The translations under genes and the position numbers were made by a program. From the NCBI RefSeq assembly GCF_000204645.1, contig NC_015422.1, positions 4,665,001 through 4,729,000 on the forward strand: a DNA stretch of 64,000 nt, written 5' to 3'. The notes below the pieces were generated by a model, which saw nothing but the letters and a program-made list of their open reading frames with translations, was not told the origin of the DNA and did no database searches. This stretch comes from Alicycliphilus denitrificans K601. Lineage in GTDB: Bacteria > Pseudomonadota > Gammaproteobacteria > Burkholderiales > Burkholderiaceae_C. Below are positions 2,975-11,431 of this stretch, in pieces (position 1 is the first letter of the stretch; the number at the start of each line of letters is the position of its first letter).

Positions 2975-3069
2975 GGTGCGATTCCCCTGGTCTTAAGAAC
3001 CAGAAGTTCCTGGGTTCTTTTGCGTGGCCGCCATTGTGCGCCGCCCTCGCAGGCGGCGCATGCGGGCGT

Positions 3070-4365
3070 TCAGTCGTAGATCTCGGCCTCGGGGTCCGTG
3101 GCTTCCAGCTCGTAGCTGGCGGCCAGCATGGCCAGGCGCGCGATCACGCCGTACATGTAGAAGCGGTTGGGCGCGCTCGCGCCCGGGCGGGCGCCGGGCT
3201 GGGGCAGTTGGGTGCTGTGCTGGAAGGCCAGCGGCACGAAGCTCGCGCCGGGAGCGTTCAGGTTCTCGTCCACGCCGCGCTCGGCATGCATGCGGTAGAA
3301 GCCCCCGACCACGTAGCGGTCCATCATGTAGACCACGGGCTCGGCCACGGCCTCGTGCACGCGCTCCTGGGTCAGCACGCCCTCCTGCACGATCACGTCG
3401 TGCACCTCCTGACCGTCCTTGATCACGGCCATCTTGTTGCGCGTCTTGCGGTTCAGGCCTTCGAGCTCCTTGGCGTCGTGCACGGTCATGATGCCCATGC
3501 CGTAGGTGCCGTTGTCGGCCTTGACGACGGCAAAGGGCTTTTCCTTGATGCCGTATTCCTTGTACTTGCGCCGCACCTTGGCGAGCAGCGCGTCGACCAC
3601 GCTGGCCAGCCCCTCCATGCCCGTTCCCTGGTTGAAGTCCACGCCCTCTACGTTGCCGAACAGCGGGTTGATGAGCCAGGGATCTATGCCCAGCATCTTG
3701 CCGAAGCGCTTGGCCACCTCTTCGTAGCTCTTGAAATGGTGGCTCTTCCTGCGCACGCTCCAGCCTGCGTGCAGCGGCGGCAGCAGGTACTGCTCGTACA
3801 GCTCCTCCAGGATACCCGGCGCACCGGCCGACAGGTCGTTGTTGAGCAAGATGGTACAGGGATCGAAGTTCTTCAGTCCCAGGCGGCGCTTGGTGCGGAT
3901 CACCGGCTCCAGCGTCACCGTCTCGCCGTGGGGCAGCGTGATGGTGGTGGTCTTCTTGATGTCCGGGCTGATCGAGCCCACGCGCACGTTGAGCCCAGCC
4001 ATGTTGAAGATGCGCACCAGCTGCGCCACGTTGGCCAGGTAGAAGGTGTTGCGCGAATGGTTCTCGGGGATGATGAGCAGGTTGCGCGCCTCGGGGCAGA
4101 TCTTCTCGATGGCCGCCATGGCCGCCTGCACCGCCAGCGGCAGCATCTCGTCGGTCAGGTTGTTCCAGCCGCCGGGAAACAGGTTGGTGTCCACGGGCGC
4201 CAGCTTGAAGCCGGCATTGCGGATGTCCACCGAGCTGTAGAACGGCGGCGTGTGCTCCATCCACTCCAGGCGGAACCAGCGCTCGATGGCCGGCATGGAG
4301 TCCAGGATGCGCTGCTCCAGCTCGTTGATCGGGCCTGTGAGTGCGGTGACGAGGTGCGGAACCAT
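3070..4365 (-). CDS. gshA: Glutamate--cysteine ligase (GshA type)
   Basis: First enzyme of glutathione synthesis: ATP-dependent joining of L-glutamate and L-cysteine. The protein belongs to the betaproteobacterial GshA family, distinct from the E. coli type, with conserved blocks DTNLFPGGWNNL, PENHSRN, KADNGTYGMGIM and YMYGVIARLAMLAA. I place the start at MVPHLVTALTGPINELEQ (431 residues), where family members begin. It is preceded by a GGGG stretch about 7 bases upstream. A GTG at 4413 with a GGGAGG in front would add 16 residues and lies only 20 bases after the trkH stop, so the longer form cannot be excluded. Likely cotranscribed with trkA-trkH upstream. Confidence 0.9.
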   Translation of the reverse strand: MVPHLVTALTGPINELEQRILDSMPAIERWFRLEWMEHTPPFYSSVDIRNAGFKLAPVDTNLFPGGWNNLTDEMLPLAVQAAMAAIEKICPEARNLLIIPENHSRNTFYLANVAQLVRIFNMAGLNVRVGSISPDIKKTTTITLPHGETVTLEPVIRTKRRLGLKNFDPCTILLNNDLSAGAPGILEELYEQYLLPPLHAGWSVRRKSHHFKSYEEVAKRFGKMLGIDPWLINPLFGNVEGVDFNQGTGMEGLASVVDALLAKVRRKYKEYGIKEKPFAVVKADNGTYGMGIMTVHDAKELEGLNRKTRNKMAVIKDGQEVHDVIVQEGVLTQERVHEAVAEPVVYMMDRYVVGGFYRMHAERGVDENLNAPGASFVPLAFQHSTQLPQPGARPGASAPNRFYMYGVIARLAMLAASYELEATDPEAEIYD

Positions 4366-5900: not shown

Positions 5901-7376
5901 TCAGCAGAAGATGGCGTTCACGCGGAACAGTTTTTCCACCTCGCGCACCAGGCGCTTGTTCGGCAGAAAGAACACCACATGGTCGTTGCTCTCGATCACC
6001 GTGTGGCTGCGCGGGATGATGACCTCGGGCGTGCGCGGCTGCACAGGCACGATGGCGCCCTCGGGCGGCGGCGGCGCGTCCGGGTCGGGCAGGCCGCGTA
6101 CGATCAGGCCCATGTGCACAGCCGGCGGCAGCGACAGATCCTCCACGCGCCGGCCCACCACGCGCGAACTCTTGCGGTCGCCGCGCGCCACGATCTCCAG
6201 CGCCTCGGCCACGCCGCGGCGCAGGCTGTGCACTGCCTGCACGTCGCCCTGGCGCGTGTAGGCCAGCAGTTCGCCCAGCATGGCCTGCGCGGGCGTCAGG
6301 GCGATGTCGATCTGCGTGCCGTGCATCAGCTCGGCATAGGCCTGGCGGTCGATGAGCGCCAGCACGCGGCGCGCGCCCATGCGCTTAGCCAGCAGGCAAG
6401 ACATGATGTTGTTCTCGTCGTCGTTGGACAGCGCCAGGAAGAAGTCCACCTCCTCGATGCCCTCCTCGCCCAGCAGCTCCTCGTCCGACGACTCGCCCTG
6501 CAGCACCAGCACTTCCTCGGGCAGGTTCGACGCCAGCGCCACGCAGCGCTGCGCGTCGTGCTCGATGATCTTGATGTTGAAGCGCCCCTGCTCGGCCGCG
6601 AGGGCGCGCGCCAGGCGCTCGCTGACCACGCCGCCGCCGGCCATCATGATGCGGCGCACCACGCGCGGCGGCTGGCCCGGGCGCATGCGCAGCGCCGCCA
6701 GCACCTGGGGCACGCGCTCGCGGCCGGCCAGCGCGAACACCTCGTCGCCCGGCTCGATGCGCGTGGCGCCGTCGCAGGGCACGAAGCGGTCGGGCTCGTC
6801 GGGAAAGCGCCGGTAGATGGCGACGATGCGCACCGCCACGTCCGGCATCTGCTCGCGCAGCAGCTTGATCTCCAGGCCCACGGCCGGCGCGCCGGCGCGC
6901 GCGCGCGCCGACACCAGGCAGGCGCGCCCGTCGGCGAACTCGCGCACCTGCAACGCGCCGGGGTATTCCATGAGCTTGCCGATGTAGCGCACCAGCGAGT
7001 TCTCGGGGCACAGGATGTGGTCCACCGCGAAGCCCTCGCGCGAGAGCAGCGCGCTGCCGTCCTCGAAACCGTTGGTGCGCACGCGCGCGATGCAGCTCGG
7101 CACGTTGAACTGCATCTGCGCCACCTTGGCGCAGACCAGGTTGGTCTCGTCCTGCGCCGCGCAGGCGATGAGCAGGTCGGTGTCGCGCGCGCCGGCCTCG
7201 GCCAGCACGGCCGGGTCTATGCCGTTGCCTACCACGCCGCGCAGATCCAGGCGCGCCTCCAGGTCGCGCAGGCGCTGGGCATCGGTGTCGATGACGGTGA
7301 TGTCGTTGCTCTCTGACACCAGGCTGGCCGCCGCGCTCTGGCCCACGCGGCCCGCGCCCAGGATGATGATTTTCAT
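5901..7376 (-). CDS. trkA: Trk system regulatory subunit TrkA
   Basis: Cytoplasmic NAD(H)-binding gating subunit of Trk. Two tandem TrkA-N/TrkA-C modules are visible. The first Rossmann motif GAGRVG is at residues 7-12, with the acidic ribose-binding end at VIDTD near residue 28. The second glycine motif, AGGGVVS, is near residue 246. At 491 residues it is about 30 longer than E. coli TrkA. The extra length is a proline-rich stretch (PDPDAPPPPEG) in the last TrkA-C domain near residue 430. The start MKIIILGAGRVG is the usual one. A dispersed repeat abuts the start codon on its upstream side. Confidence 0.95.
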   Translation of the reverse strand: MKIIILGAGRVGQSAAASLVSESNDITVIDTDAQRLRDLEARLDLRGVVGNGIDPAVLAEAGARDTDLLIACAAQDETNLVCAKVAQMQFNVPSCIARVRTNGFEDGSALLSREGFAVDHILCPENSLVRYIGKLMEYPGALQVREFADGRACLVSARARAGAPAVGLEIKLLREQMPDVAVRIVAIYRRFPDEPDRFVPCDGATRIEPGDEVFALAGRERVPQVLAALRMRPGQPPRVVRRIMMAGGGVVSERLARALAAEQGRFNIKIIEHDAQRCVALASNLPEEVLVLQGESSDEELLGEEGIEEVDFFLALSNDDENNIMSCLLAKRMGARRVLALIDRQAYAELMHGTQIDIALTPAQAMLGELLAYTRQGDVQAVHSLRRGVAEALEIVARGDRKSSRVVGRRVEDLSLPPAVHMGLIVRGLPDPDAPPPPEGAIVPVQPRTPEVIIPRSHTVIESNDHVVFFLPNKRLVREVEKLFRVNAIFC

Positions 7377-7436
7377 ATGAAATTGGCCTCTAGACCAATG
7401 TGGATACGCTCTATCAGCTATTAAGTCAGGAGCTAA
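7377..7436 (-). repeat. dispersed ~60 bp repeat, copy 2 (trkA-proA gap)
   Basis: Read on the minus strand it gives TTAATAGCTGATAGAGCG, a short spacer, then TCTAGAGGCCAATTTCAT. It fills the whole gap between the proA stop and the trkA start, so it must form part of the trkA leader. Confidence 0.65.
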
Positions 7437-8717
7437 TCAGCCCCGCACCTCGCCCTCGCCCAGCACCACCCACTTGAGCGACGTCAGGCCCTCGATGCCC
7501 ACGGGCCCGCGCGCGTGGAACTTGTCCGTGCTGATGCCGATCTCGGCGCCCAGGCCGTACTCGAAGCCGTCGGCGAAGCGCGTGCTGGCGTTGACCATCA
7601 CGCTGGCCGAATCCACCTCGCGCAGAAAGCGCTGCGCGTGCATGTGGTCGCGCGTGAGGATGGCGTCCGTGTGGTGGCTGCCGTAGCGGTTGATGTGCGC
7701 GATGGCTTCATCCAGCCCCGCCACCACCTTCACGCTGATGATGGGCGCCAGGTACTCCTCGCTCCAATCCTGCTCGGTGGCCTCGGCCAGGTCGGCGCCC
7801 GGCACGGCGCGCAGGATGGCCAGCGCCTCGGCGTCGCCGCGCATCTGCACGCCCTTGGCGGCGTAGACGGCGCCGATCCGCGGCAGGAACCCGGCCGCCA
7901 CGCCGCGCGCCACCAGCAGGCCCTCGCTCGCGTTGCAGGGGCTGTACTTGTTCGTCTTGGCGTTGTCGGCCACGTTCACGGCCATGTCCACGTCGCAGGG
8001 GTCGTCCACGTAGGTGTGGCAGTTGCCGTCCAGGTGCTTGATGACGGGCACCTTGGCCTCGGCACTGATGCGCTCGATCAGCCCCTTGCCGCCGCGCGGG
8101 ATGATCACGTCCACGTACTCGGGCATGGCAATCAGCTGGCCCACCGCCGCGCGGTCGGTGGTCTGCACCAGCTGCACGCCGTGCTCGGGCAGGCCGGCCT
8201 CGGCCAGCGCCCGAGCCACCAGCCGTGCCAGCGCCTGGTTGGAGTCGATGGCCTCGGAACCGCCGCGCAGGATGCAGGCGTTGCCGCTCTTGATGCTCAG
8301 GGACGCCGCCTCGATGGTCACGTTGGGCCGGCTCTCGTAGATCATGCCGAAGACGCCGATGGGCACGCGCATCCGGCCCACGCGGATGCCGCTGGGCTGC
8401 TGCTTCATCCCGATGATCTCGCCGATGATGTCCGGCATGGCCGCCAGCTGCTCGCAGCCCTGGGCGCAGGTCTCGATCACCTTGGGCGTGAGCTTCAGGC
8501 GGTCCACCATGGGCTCCGCCAGGCCCGCGGCGCGCGCGCGCTCCAGGTCGCGCGCGTTGTCCAGCTGCAGCGCGCCGACGTTCTCGCGCAGCAGCCGGGC
8601 GAGCGCCAGCAACGCTTTGTTTTTAATAGCTGCTGGCGCACGCGCCATAAGCGCTGAAGCGGCTTTTGCTTGTAAACCCAACGTCTGGGTGTATTCGGCG
8701 ATGTTCAGGGCGTTCAT
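7437..8717 (-). CDS. proA: Gamma-glutamyl phosphate reductase ProA
   Basis: Second enzyme of proline synthesis: NADPH reduction of glutamate 5-phosphate to the semialdehyde. 426 residues from [14 protein letters not shown], matching the family. Conserved blocks are RRVPIGV-like [30 protein letters not shown], the catalytic-Cys region [11 protein letters not shown], and the C-terminal [18 protein letters not shown] longer reading frame upstream (to 8816) has no family support. Residues about 10-35 are encoded by an AT-rich patch that matches the dispersed repeat of this genome, yet they still align in length with E. coli ProA. proB is not in the window. Confidence 0.95.
8611..8692 (+). repeat. 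dispersed repeat, copy 3, inside proA
   Basis: Contains TTTTTAATAGCTGCTGGCGC, a spacer, then CATAAGCGCTGAAGCGGCTTTTGCT, in family order. It lies fully within the proA coding region and encodes about residues 9-36 in frame. Confidence 0.6.
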
Positions 8718-8788: not shown

Positions 8789-9124
8789 TCAGCCCACGCG
8801 CTGCAGTTTCACGCACGCGCCTTGCGCGGCGGCCACATGCTCCGTGCTGATGTACCGCAGCGTGCCGCGGCCGTCCAGGACGCGCGCCTGCAGCGCGAGC
8901 TCGGACGTGGGCCGGCCCAGCAGGCCCGCCGGGTCGGCCCAGTCCAGGCGAAACGCACTGGCGTCGCCATGCACCGGCGCGCGCACCGGGGCGGCATATT
9001 GCGCGACCAGCGGCGCCGCGGCGTCCTGGCGCCCGACGTCGCGCAGCTCGACCGTGAGCACCAGCTCAGCGCCGCTCGGCGGTGCGTCGCTGGGCCATAG
9101 CACCTGACCTTCGAGATGGGGCAT
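8789..9124 (-). CDS. YbaY/YscW-like small beta-sandwich protein
   Basis: A 111-residue protein resembling the YbaY / YscW (type III pilotin-like) domain. The pattern is [20 protein letters not shown], then ELRDVG, then a P-rich strand, FRLDW, and [19 protein letters not shown] near residue 75. I chose MPHLEGQV because the domain begins there. The longer frame to 9217 only adds sequence antisense-like in composition. It has no signal peptide or lipobox, unlike enterobacterial YbaY. Its start lies inside the 3' end of the ATP-grasp gene (59 base overlap), so it is probably the third gene of that operon. Function unknown; it may bind or chaperone a product of the system. The 3' end carries one copy of a 16 bp direct repeat that flanks the locus. 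Confidence 0.65.
8804..8819. repeat. 16 bp direct repeat, left copy
   Basis: CAGTTTCACGCACGCG occurs here and again, unchanged, at 11607-11622. The two copies bracket the protease / ATP-grasp / YbaY-like gene set. This copy encodes Ala-Cys-Val-Lys-Leu near the C-terminus of the YbaY-like protein. Confidence 0.7.
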
Positions 9125-10127
9125 CGTCTTGGCGTGACCTGATAGGTTGGGATGATGAAGGGCCGTGGCGCCTTCGCTGGCGCTGCCCGGCAGCGAGCCT
9201 GCGCAGCGCGTCCGCATGCGCCTGCGTGATCGGCAGGCCTGTGCGCGACTCCACGAACAGCCATTGGCCGGCGGGATTCACCTCCAGGAAATAATAGTCG
9301 CCGCGGGCGTCCTGCTTCAAGTCGATCGCGCCATAGACCAGCCCGAGCCGCCGCATCAAGGCCAGCAGGCGGGCGGCCAATGCCGCGGGCAATTCGACGG
9401 CACGGATCTTCGCCTGGCCGATCACCATGCGCATGTCGGTCGGGTAGTCGCTGTCGCGGGCGTCGATCTCGGCGGCAAAGATGGCCTCGCCGATCACGGT
9501 GACGCGCAGGTCCACGCCCTGGATGCAGCGCTGGAAGATCACCGGCGCCAGCCGCACCAGTTCCAGGCGCGCAAGGTCCTCGGCCTCGACCAGGCGGGTC
9601 TCGCGCCAGTCCGCGATGCTGGCGAGAAAGGGCTTGAACACCACGCCGGCGCCGCGGTGCGCGTCGCAGAAGGCGCGCGCGGCATCGGCGGACGTCGTCA
9701 CGCAGGTCGGCGGCAGCGTCAGGCCGACGGCCGCGGCCTGCGTCCACTGCAGCGGCTTGCGGTGCGCGGCATCGTCGGCCCCGCGGGGATTGATCCACGG
9801 CGCGTCGATCGAATCGAGCATGCCCAGCACGGCCTGCTCCGTCTCGCTGTGGGCGAACTGGCGCCGGTCGGCGGGCCCCACCGCGGGGTCTATCTCGAAG
9901 GGGCGCACACGCCGCCACCACACGGCATCGGCCGTCGCCAGGTCGATGGGCTCCTCGCCCAGCAGTTGCAGCGACGGCGCGCCATGGCCGGGCCAGCCGA
10001 AGGCCAGCGGCCGCCGGCCGGGGAACTCCGACAGGTCCAGCCGGTGGACCGGCTCCCCGGCGGCGGCCAGGCGCGCGCACACGGCGTCGGTGTGCTCCTC
10101 GCCCGGGTAGGAGACGACGACGATCAT
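9066..10127 (-). CDS. MvdD-like ATP-grasp peptide ligase
   Basis: 353-residue ATP-grasp enzyme related to MvdC/MvdD, the macrocyclases that join Asp/Glu side chains to Thr, Ser or Lys in microviridins and other graspetides. An N-terminal pre-ATP-grasp domain starts MIVVVSYPGEEHTDAV. The family segment INPRGADDAAHRKPLQWTQA is at residues 112-131. Other motifs are the ATP-lysine FKPF at 164-167, IDLKQD at 268-273 and the metal-binding LEVNPAGQWLFVE at 281-293. All expected catalytic residues are present. The last 40 residues are basic and low in complexity. Its ATG overlaps the protease stop by four bases (ATGA), which implies coupled expression. RimK-type ligation of another substrate is the main alternative. 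Confidence 0.85.
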   Translation of the reverse strand: MIVVVSYPGEEHTDAVCARLAAAGEPVHRLDLSEFPGRRPLAFGWPGHGAPSLQLLGEEPIDLATADAVWWRRVRPFEIDPAVGPADRRQFAHSETEQAVLGMLDSIDAPWINPRGADDAAHRKPLQWTQAAAVGLTLPPTCVTTSADAARAFCDAHRGAGVVFKPFLASIADWRETRLVEAEDLARLELVRLAPVIFQRCIQGVDLRVTVIGEAIFAAEIDARDSDYPTDMRMVIGQAKIRAVELPAALAARLLALMRRLGLVYGAIDLKQDARGDYYFLEVNPAGQWLFVESRTGLPITQAHADALRRLAAGQRQRRRHGPSSSQPIRSRQDDAPSRRSGAMAQRRTAERR

Positions 10128-11431
10128 GCCGTCCCCTCGCCGCCCCCCATCGCGCGCCAGGCCTGCAGGGCCTGCTCCAGCTCCAGCGCCAGCGCATCGG
10201 CGGCGGCCTGGGCCTCCTGGTGGGCGGCGGCGAGCTGCTCCAGCTGCTCGGCCGCCTGCTGCATCGCATCGCCGGGGTTGTCCATCTGCGGCTGGCGGCT
10301 CGCCCCGGCCAGCACGAAGGGCGTGGCAATCCCGCCGGCGGCCGGGTTGATCAGCGGGCCGGGGCCAGGGCCGATCGGGTCCCGGCCGACCTCCTTGACC
10401 GTTTCCCTGATCGGGTCCTTGCCGATCTCCTTGGCCGTGTCGCTGATCGGGTCCTTGCGCACCTCCTTGATCGTGTCACGGATGGGATCCTTGGCAATCT
10501 CCTTGACCGTGTCGCTGATCGGATCCTTGCGCACTTCCTTGACCGTATCGCGGATCGGATCCTTGGCGATCTCCTTGATCGTCGGCCGCACATTGGGATA
10601 CATGGCCAGGACGCCCGCGATGTCGCCGGCGGACAGGCCCGTGCGCTGCCCCATGGTGACGCCCGGCGGCAGCGGCACCCGCGGCACCAGCGTGGGCTGC
10701 CCGTTGGTCGAGAAGGCCGTCGCCGGGTAATGCATGATCGACCCGAAGTCGTACGCGCCCAGGTCGTCGCCGTCCTGGATGTGCTGGTTGAAGTTGTGCT
10801 GCATCGCCGGATCGATGTTCGCCCAGTTGACCTGCACGAACTGGTCGCGGTCCTCCCGGCTCTGCTCGTGCCACAGGCCAACGGCGTGCCCGATCTCATG
10901 GATCGCGTTGCCCAGCGTGCAGCCCGTGCCCAGGGTGATCGACTGCGCACCGCCGCGGCGCCCGACATTCGACGAGCACCCGCTGCCGGGCACGAACCGC
11001 ACGTAGTCCGGGTACTGCGCGGCATTGGCCGGCGTGCGGGCGACGAAACGGATGACGGTGTTCGCCTCCCAGTGCGCGATGGCGTCCGTGACCCGCGCCT
11101 GGTTCGGAAGGGCGGCGTCGATCTCGTACGGAACGCGGCCATTGGCCCAGCGGAACTGCACGCCATCGGGGCTGGTGATGCCGACCGAGAACAGCACCGG
11201 GTTGCCCGACTCGTCCGCCTGCATGTCGGCGACGCTCCCCAGCACGATGTCCCCTTCGAAGATCGCCTGGCCATCGACATCGGCATAGTGCAGCCACTTG
11301 CCCGTCGTGTTGTTGAGGCCCCGCAGCCCCACGAAGGCCGTGCCCGCCAGCGGGCCCGAACGGCATTCGCATTGATCGCCGCCACCGGACTTGCCGGCCG
11401 GGCCGCGCCCGGTTTCTTGTCGTGTTGCCAT
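10124..11431 (-). CDS. Astacin-type (M12) zinc metalloprotease with 12-residue repeat tail
   Basis: 435 residues from ATG 11431, chosen because GAGGAG stands 8 bases upstream (an ATG at 11437 would be too close). There is no signal peptide, unlike most astacins. Residues 1-95 form an uncharacterised domain. The catalytic domain follows with the zinc motif HEIGHAVGLWHEQSREDRD at 178-196 (His178, Glu179, His182, His188) and the Met-turn SIMHY at 231-235, so it should be active. Residues 282-353 are six repeats of 12 residues, consensus R/S-D/E-T-V/I-K-E-I/V-x-K/R-D-P-I. Next come a Gly-Pro linker and an Ala/Gln/Glu-rich coiled-coil-like tail. The repeats offer regularly spaced Thr, Ser, Lys, Asp and Glu, the residue types used by graspetide ligases, and such a ligase is the next gene. 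I infer that this protein carries its own modification region. Confidence 0.88.
   Translation of the reverse strand: MATRQETGRGPAGKSGGGDQCECRSGPLAGTAFVGLRGLNNTTGKWLHYADVDGQAIFEGDIVLGSVADMQADESGNPVLFSVGITSPDGVQFRWANGRVPYEIDAALPNQARVTDAIAHWEANTVIRFVARTPANAAQYPDYVRFVPGSGCSSNVGRRGGAQSITLGTGCTLGNAIHEIGHAVGLWHEQSREDRDQFVQVNWANIDPAMQHNFNQHIQDGDDLGAYDFGSIMHYPATAFSTNGQPTLVPRVPLPPGVTMGQRTGLSAGDIAGVLAMYPNVRPTIKEIAKDPIRDTVKEVRKDPISDTVKEIAKDPIRDTIKEVRKDPISDTAKEIGKDPIRETVKEVGRDPIGPGPGPLINPAAGGIATPFVLAGASRQPQMDNPGDAMQQAAEQLEQLAAAHQEAQAAADALALELEQALQAWRAMGGGEGTA
10373..10588 (-). repeat. six tandem 36 bp coding repeats
   Basis: In frame within the metalloprotease gene. The units read RPTIKEIAKDPI, RDTVKEVRKDPI, SDTVKEIAKDPI, RDTIKEVRKDPI, SDTAKEIGKDPI, RETVKEVGRDPI. 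Units 2-5 alternate between an R-type and an S-type start, suggesting growth by duplication of a 72 bp pair. Thr, Lys-Glu and Asp-Pro-Ile are kept in every unit. Confidence 0.97.

Follow-up and report, generated by a model that had tools for sequence, protein, structure and literature searches.

A repeat-tailed astacin beside a graspetide-type ATP-grasp ligase in Alicycliphilus denitrificans K601 and the possible cross-linking of enzyme tails

A stretch of 64,000 nucleotides from Alicycliphilus denitrificans K601 (contig NC_015422.1, positions 4,665,001-4,729,000; the window, whose numbering is used in Table 1) contains three minus-strand genes with overlapping ends which encode an astacin-type protease with a repeat tail, an ATP-grasp ligase of the graspetide type and a small YscW-like protein. 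The astacin and ligase genes share four bases, and 59 bases are common to the ligase gene and the small gene if the latter starts at ATG 9124. Both overlaps had been claimed in an earlier note made from the sequence alone and agree with the coordinates, as does its description of an intact astacin, recognisable by HEIGHAVGLWHE, MHY and a Pfam Astacin match, which carries six 12-residue repeats detected by Tandem Repeats Finder. The separate short precursor that is standard at graspetide loci is, as the note also held, missing here, and the repeat tail is part of the 435 aa enzyme itself. This anatomy is no chance arrangement because the same layout recurs at 33 of the 35 ligases of the clade described below.

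Table 1. Features of the K601 locus, in window coordinates
Feature	Position	Strand	Description
Tailed astacin (peptidase M12A)	10124..11431	-	435 aa, ATG, open frame; prosegment, catalytic domain, repeat tail, C-terminal module
FEGD in prosegment	11249..11260	-	E59, G60 and D61 invariant in 11/11 tailed astacins
Zinc-binding motif HEIGHAVGLWHE	10865..10900	-	HExxHxxGxxHE type
MHY Met-turn	10727..10735	-	Read from sequence
Six 12-residue repeats, T-x-K-E-x-x-(K/R)-D-P-I-x-(D/E; P in last unit)	10367..10582	-	Tandem Repeats Finder; proposed cross-linking site
PFVLAG, start of conserved C-terminal module	10304..10321	-	Motif and alignment
Predicted C-terminal helix, residues 391-427	10151..10261	-	Second half of proposed recognition module; alignment, structure model
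Graspetide-type ATP-grasp ligase	9066..10127	-	353 aa; 316 aa core 9180-10127
YscW-like small gene	8789..9124	-	111 aa from ATG 9124; longer start ATG 9217 gives 142 aa

The astacin is matched by Pfam at 173.7 bits (cut-off 22.5) and has both the HExxHxxGxxHE signature and the Met-turn of the M12A family. It also scores 316.7 bits against NCBIfam LegP (NF045530), above the curated cut-off of 300, a label which is read here as domain resemblance only and not as a sign of a Dot/Icm secretion substrate. The FEGD of the prosegment occupies the position of the astacin 'aspartate switch', and no stretch resembling a signal peptide is seen by a crude hydropathy measure. The predicted structure of the whole protein is poor (pLDDT 55, 11 sequences) and is used here only for the low confidence at which the repeat tail is modelled and for the C-terminal helix, whose pLDDT block means are mostly 63-71.

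The repeats of the tail (period 36, 5.8 copies, score 238 in Tandem Repeats Finder) are conserved at the residues that a graspetide ligase would need. Across 24 units, taken from the astacin tail here and from those of three relatives, T1, K3, E4 and D8 are invariant, P9 and I10 are kept in 23, and 20 units have D or E at position 12, the exceptions being confined to the final unit of each protein. Positions 2, 5, 6 and 11 are variable, and the codons at the fixed residues vary synonymously (for D8, GAT 7 and GAC 17). In all 33 tailed proteins considered below, T, S, K, D or E occupy 143/209 conserved positions (at least 75% identical at the best period of each tail) as against 333/1251 residues at variable positions. 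Since this test chooses the period that fits each tail best, it is biased towards conserved columns whatever their residues, and it serves here solely to compare residue types. The pattern of acceptors (Thr/Ser/Lys) together with donors (Asp/Glu) expected of a graspetide core is thus present in sequence, weakly so in at least five of the 33 tails.

The ligase matches the MvdD pre-ATP-grasp domain of Pfam (35.2 bits, cut-off 27) and reaches 222 bits with TIGR04187, below the cut-off of 350. Its predicted fold is of the MdnB/MdnC/PsnB type, and its nine best structural matches are all ligases of the peptide macrocyclase type, about 5 Z units above RimK. This margin, together with the conserved acceptor and donor residues that fit cross-linking, makes it very improbable that the enzyme acts in the manner of RimK by adding amino acids to the side chains or C-terminus of the tail. 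Relatives of the ligase are scarce: in a sample of the order, matches at 1e-20 occur in 7/300 genomes and are only distant outside its own genome (best 131.5 bits), and in a sample of the class any match occurs in 8/369, one of them nearer (G476, 189 bits). A further relative (44%) lies in a Burkholderia stagnalis plasmid record, and both this ligase and that of G476 are directly preceded by an M43-type protease, not an astacin, which bears a repeat tail of its own and resembles the K601 astacin at the C-terminus. Viral contigs give one distant match only (22% identity), with no sign of phage carriage in that collection, and PADLOC gives no convincing match for the two larger proteins of the locus. 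The K601 genome also harbours a second graspetide-type ATP-grasp gene (L028, G000:C1:2820993-2821772; 6961-7944, minus strand), which adjoins a small gene (7953-8333, minus strand) for an ordinary-looking short precursor of 126 aa with three TTKT/QTKT...RDD/QDD repeats in its C-terminal half. This pair is a built-in comparison for the enzyme-borne tail.

The repeats of the astacin are followed by a C-terminal module whose occurrence is coupled to that of the ligase. A scan of genome contigs with three ligases gave 442 loci, the best 80 of which are L037-L116. A regular expression (PF and two residues, lying 31-109 aa before the end of an open reading frame of more than 250 aa which ends -600 to +120 relative to the ligase start) finds a tailed protein at 32 of 85 loci tested, namely 30/32 in L037-L068 plus L019 and L022, and at none of the 48 loci L069-L116, nor at L020, L021 and L023. 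The two misses are L049, where the sequence upstream of the ligase is only 191 bases long (14.4 bits with a module profile), and L060, where the profile detects the tail end in a 128-residue frame. Built from 32 seeds, whose own matches are by construction, this profile recovers the K601 astacin, which is no seed, at 45.5 bits and has no match in L069-L116 even at E 10. The motif of the module in the 33 proteins is PFVL (18), PFVQ (4), PFAL (3), PFIL (2), PFVI (2) or one of four single forms. In a ligase tree of 55 rows, which takes part of the 48 outgroup loci, the K601 ligase, the 32 tailed loci, L049 and L060 form one 35-row clade (99/97), and the 20 other rows all fall outside it.

Tail and ligase are also found or missing together across genomes; in some genomes the scoring covered a part of the first-look candidates, which leaves the absences incomplete. 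Among the 369 class genomes the module is present in two, both with a near ligase, and in none of the six with distant ATP-grasps only; eleven Chloroflexota places with ligases of ~243-264 bits have no match to the module profile either. In the 81 Cellulomonas genomes, clade ligases (398 bits or more) number 17 and are spread over 12 genomes. Module matches number 15 in 11 genomes; all lie within 40 bases of a ligase match, and one (G746) is read with an internal TGA and counted unchanged. Two clade ligases have no module match: one in G747 stands beside a tailed astacin whose motif is a divergent PLIL, and the second one of G720 starts 77 bases from a contig end. No module is found in the 69 Cellulomonas genomes that lack a clade ligase, nor at weaker ATP-grasps of this genus (G691, 190.9 bits; one each in seven genomes at ~149-156 bits). 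The earlier note had let its proposal hang on the co-occurrence of the protease with the ligase. For the protease domain this does not hold, as none of 21 other astacin places (in 8 of the 300 order-sample genomes) has the ligase in the fetched flank; the link between tail and ligase stands because none of these ligase-free places has the tail module there. Four weak module matches (E 0.002-0.008) were dropped, the PF-motif frames in L144 and L145 belonging to unrelated proteins and L142 and L143 having no PF motif.

For branch 7 of the graspetide-type ligases, Makarova et al. (2022, PMC8939145) propose precursors encoded elsewhere, and by analogy the tail could be a mere linker and the ligase target lie at another locus. 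This is quite improbable here: tail and ligase are coupled in 33/35 loci and jointly absent in the samples searched, conservation falls on Thr, Lys, Glu and Asp, and among 24 genomes picked for carrying the locus a single clear module is present in 23, while G679 alone has two, each adjoining a ligase. The missing target of the ligase is most likely the enzyme's own tail, because the same kind of tail is found on unrelated enzymes directly beside it.

The 33 tailed proteins match Pfam Peptidase_M43 (12), Astacin (11), Trypsin_2 (8), Tyrosinase (1) and Peptidase_S8 (1), with one further match to Trypsin, so that 32/33 hosts are proteases of four unrelated families and one (L042) is a tyrosinase; the 32 hosts other than the K601 astacin are each 420 aa or longer as called. 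They come from Pseudomonadota, Actinomycetota, Chloroflexota, Acidobacteriota, Planctomycetota, Myxococcota and Bacteroidota, many sources being metagenome bins for which single phylum labels may be wrong. On a smaller ligase tree that leaves out L049 and L060, the host types require 6 changes; six labels, counting the outgroup as one, need at least 5, and shuffled labels give a mean of 20.5. In this tree the four outgroup rows are not united (L102, on a long branch, is placed weakly elsewhere, 74/60). The M43 hosts are forced into two separate places, and one M43 group joins the tyrosinase host on the 55-row tree (96/84). One ligase clade therefore serves five unrelated enzyme types, with swaps that are few and mostly old.

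The neighbourhoods of several hosts hold further genes. At L041 (Streptomyces resistomycificus) a gene judged subtilisin-like by eye (3011-4345, plus strand) lies upstream of the tailed astacin. Upstream of the L042 tyrosinase is a 148 aa protein with a His-rich end and no Pfam match (3521-3967, plus strand), which might be a copper-loading partner. PADLOC matches to LmuA (230 and 184 bits) stand beside the S8 host at L047 (2343-3701, plus strand), where the gene also matches Pfam metallo-beta-lactamase, and beside a trypsin-like host at L054 (6983-8101, minus strand); from these two loci a link of tailed enzymes to defence is possible.

The range of hosts bears on what becomes of the tail. 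Known graspetides are cut from precursors, 32/33 hosts are proteases, and peptidases that supply peptides are proposed by Makarova et al. (2022, PMC8939145), so the tail could be a true precursor which is cross-linked by the ligase and whose repeats are then cut free as small graspetides by the attached or another protease. This is unlikely, given the tyrosinase host, the presence of the tail on four unrelated protease families and the lack, on inspection by eye, of a common cleavage site in the 40 residues that precede the module in 32 tails. Processing of the tail by its own protease, as the earlier note had suggested, does not generalise for the same reason of host variety.

The C-terminal module is common to all host types, the enzyme domains of which are unrelated, and its similarity tracks that of the ligase (rho 0.53 over 30 loci, with L058 and L061 left out as near-copies). 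After enzyme type is removed a partial correlation of 0.40 persists (p 0.0015, permuted within enzyme types), as compared with 0.20 for enzyme type, and the module of the tyrosinase host is closest to that of the M43 host L050. This behaviour would suit a module that recruits the ligase. It suits less well a tail that serves as a tethered inhibitor of its own enzyme until release, which is improbable also in view of hosts that span metallo- and serine proteases plus a tyrosinase and of the xEGD prosegment, with its aspartate switch, that the tailed astacins already carry. Its appeal is that 32/33 hosts are proteases and that the characterised graspetides, which are free, are protease inhibitors (Makarova et al. 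2022, PMC8939145).

The small genes go with the enzyme rather than with the ligase. The K601 gene scores 20.9 bits against YscW (PF09619), below the Pfam cut-off of 22.6, and its relatives at L039, L041 and L043 score above it. With profiles seeded from five YscW-like genes (four of them among the ten other astacin loci) and three lipocalin-like genes, a YscW-like gene is found at every one of the 11 astacin loci, that of K601 included (on the opposite strand in L052 and L053), and also at L049 and L060, and a lipocalin-like gene beside 11/12 M43 loci, the twelfth (L067) ending with the ligase. Neither profile matches at E 0.01 in the eight trypsin-like loci, the S8 locus or the tyrosinase locus. 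At L068 a YscW-like domain lies within the ligase reading frame, a possible fusion. Astacin place L207, 65% identical over 120 residues to the K601 astacin, has a different C-terminus, a YscW-like gene nearby and neither module nor ligase in the fetched flank. The YscW-like gene was considered as a partner of the ligase and rejected, as it is present at L207 and replaced by the lipocalin-like gene in M43 loci; for these same reasons the small gene is assigned to the enzyme type, with a YscW-like partner for astacins and a lipocalin-like one for M43 peptidases, and is perhaps an inhibitor or chaperone.

From the observed anatomy, co-occurrence, predicted fold and conservation, cross-linking, recognition by the module and a purpose of the tail can be inferred as follows. 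In the enzyme encoded immediately upstream, the ligase would activate Asp/Glu side chains of the tail repeats and join them to Thr or Lys side chains as esters or amides, with 18 Da lost per link. The ligase would be recruited by the C-terminal module, whose PFVL-like motif and following segment would act as a follower where graspetides usually have an N-terminal leader. Such an enzyme-embedded graspetide, a predicted reaction, is given a probability of about 0.73. The more general proposal is judged fairly likely: tail, C-terminal module and ligase would be a portable unit in which the ligases of one clade, guided by a recognition module of their own, cross-link the repetitive tails of full-size enzymes as unrelated as astacins, trypsin-like proteases, M43 peptidases, a tyrosinase and a subtilase. 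As to purpose, a stiff, protease-resistant tail that may stabilise or anchor the enzyme is favoured over peptide release or self-inhibition, since the tail is shared by hosts with unrelated mechanisms, among them a non-protease. The earlier note's idea that the tail is the ligase substrate is thereby strongly supported, short of proof, by co-occurrence in unrelated enzymes, joint absence and conserved reactive residues, and is probably right and more general than its author knew, who had missed the PFVL-like module, the host variety and the attachment of the YscW-like gene to the astacin.

Several observations weigh against this proposal. At least five tails (L041, L043, L050, L054, L068) are barely repetitive, with a mean identity of 0.50 or less, and the repeat chemistry differs between Thr/Lys with Asp/Glu, Lys with Asp/Glu, and Thr with Asp. 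Over a fixed stretch of 130 residues several tails show no T/S/K enrichment over the catalytic part and the trend is modest and uneven, although this composition test is too blunt, and the repeat-position test came after it. Host type follows the ligase tree closely, and swapping is rarer than the variety of hosts suggests because the label changes exceed their minimum by one. The correlation between module and ligase weakens among pairs of different enzyme types (rho 0.31, p 0.07), and overall it fits recognition without proving it because the two genes adjoin and are inherited together. The most prominent leader feature is a proline with two hydrophobic residues (Makarova et al. 2022, PMC8939145). 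The full leader motif Phhx(1,2)h occurs in only 18/33 modules, and instead of an N-terminal leader with this motif or PFFARFL there is a PFVL-like motif after the repeats, an order for which no natural precedent was found. In the artificial ThfA, a leader placed behind the core works at about half rate (PMC13003496); its recognition element is likewise C-terminal to the core. ThfA is engineered and peptide-sized, whereas the arrangement here would be natural if the module is the recognition element.

Plesiocin with its ligase PsnB and the large corallotide precursor (PMC13097080) likewise involve one ATP-grasp ligase of the same fold and repeats with Thr/Lys acceptors and Asp/Glu donors, but here the repeats are borne by an enzyme of at least 420 aa with a conserved module behind them rather than a leader before. 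The branch 7 loci of Makarova et al. (2022, PMC8939145) are very probably the same loci as those of this clade: their account describes unrelated peptidases, a YscW homolog and no precursors, and several unrelated peptidase families beside the ATP-grasp gene and, in many loci, a YscW homolog are found here too. In that account precursor candidates are limited to proteins of 150 aa or less and cleavage of other cellular proteins is proposed, whereas here the neighbouring enzyme carries a substrate-like tail. Carter et al. (2026, PMC13097080) describe a group 32, similar to this clade by its description, with 'Diverse families of neighboring proteases' that they interpret as genes for maturation or resistance. 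Literature titles and abstract starts, a search that leaves supplements and most subscription papers outside, describe no enzyme-borne graspetide tail, and no paper was found that joins graspetide and astacin.

The tailed enzymes offer an answer to a stated puzzle, that of a graspetide-type ligase branch without precursors. If the proposal is true, precursor searches restricted to short genes missed a class of substrates, and a portable tag that staples the tail of a protein would be a useful tool. Graspetide-type ligases would then act on full-size enzymes, with a recognition element that can follow the core in nature, and graspetide chemistry would serve to finish proteins as well as to make small peptides.
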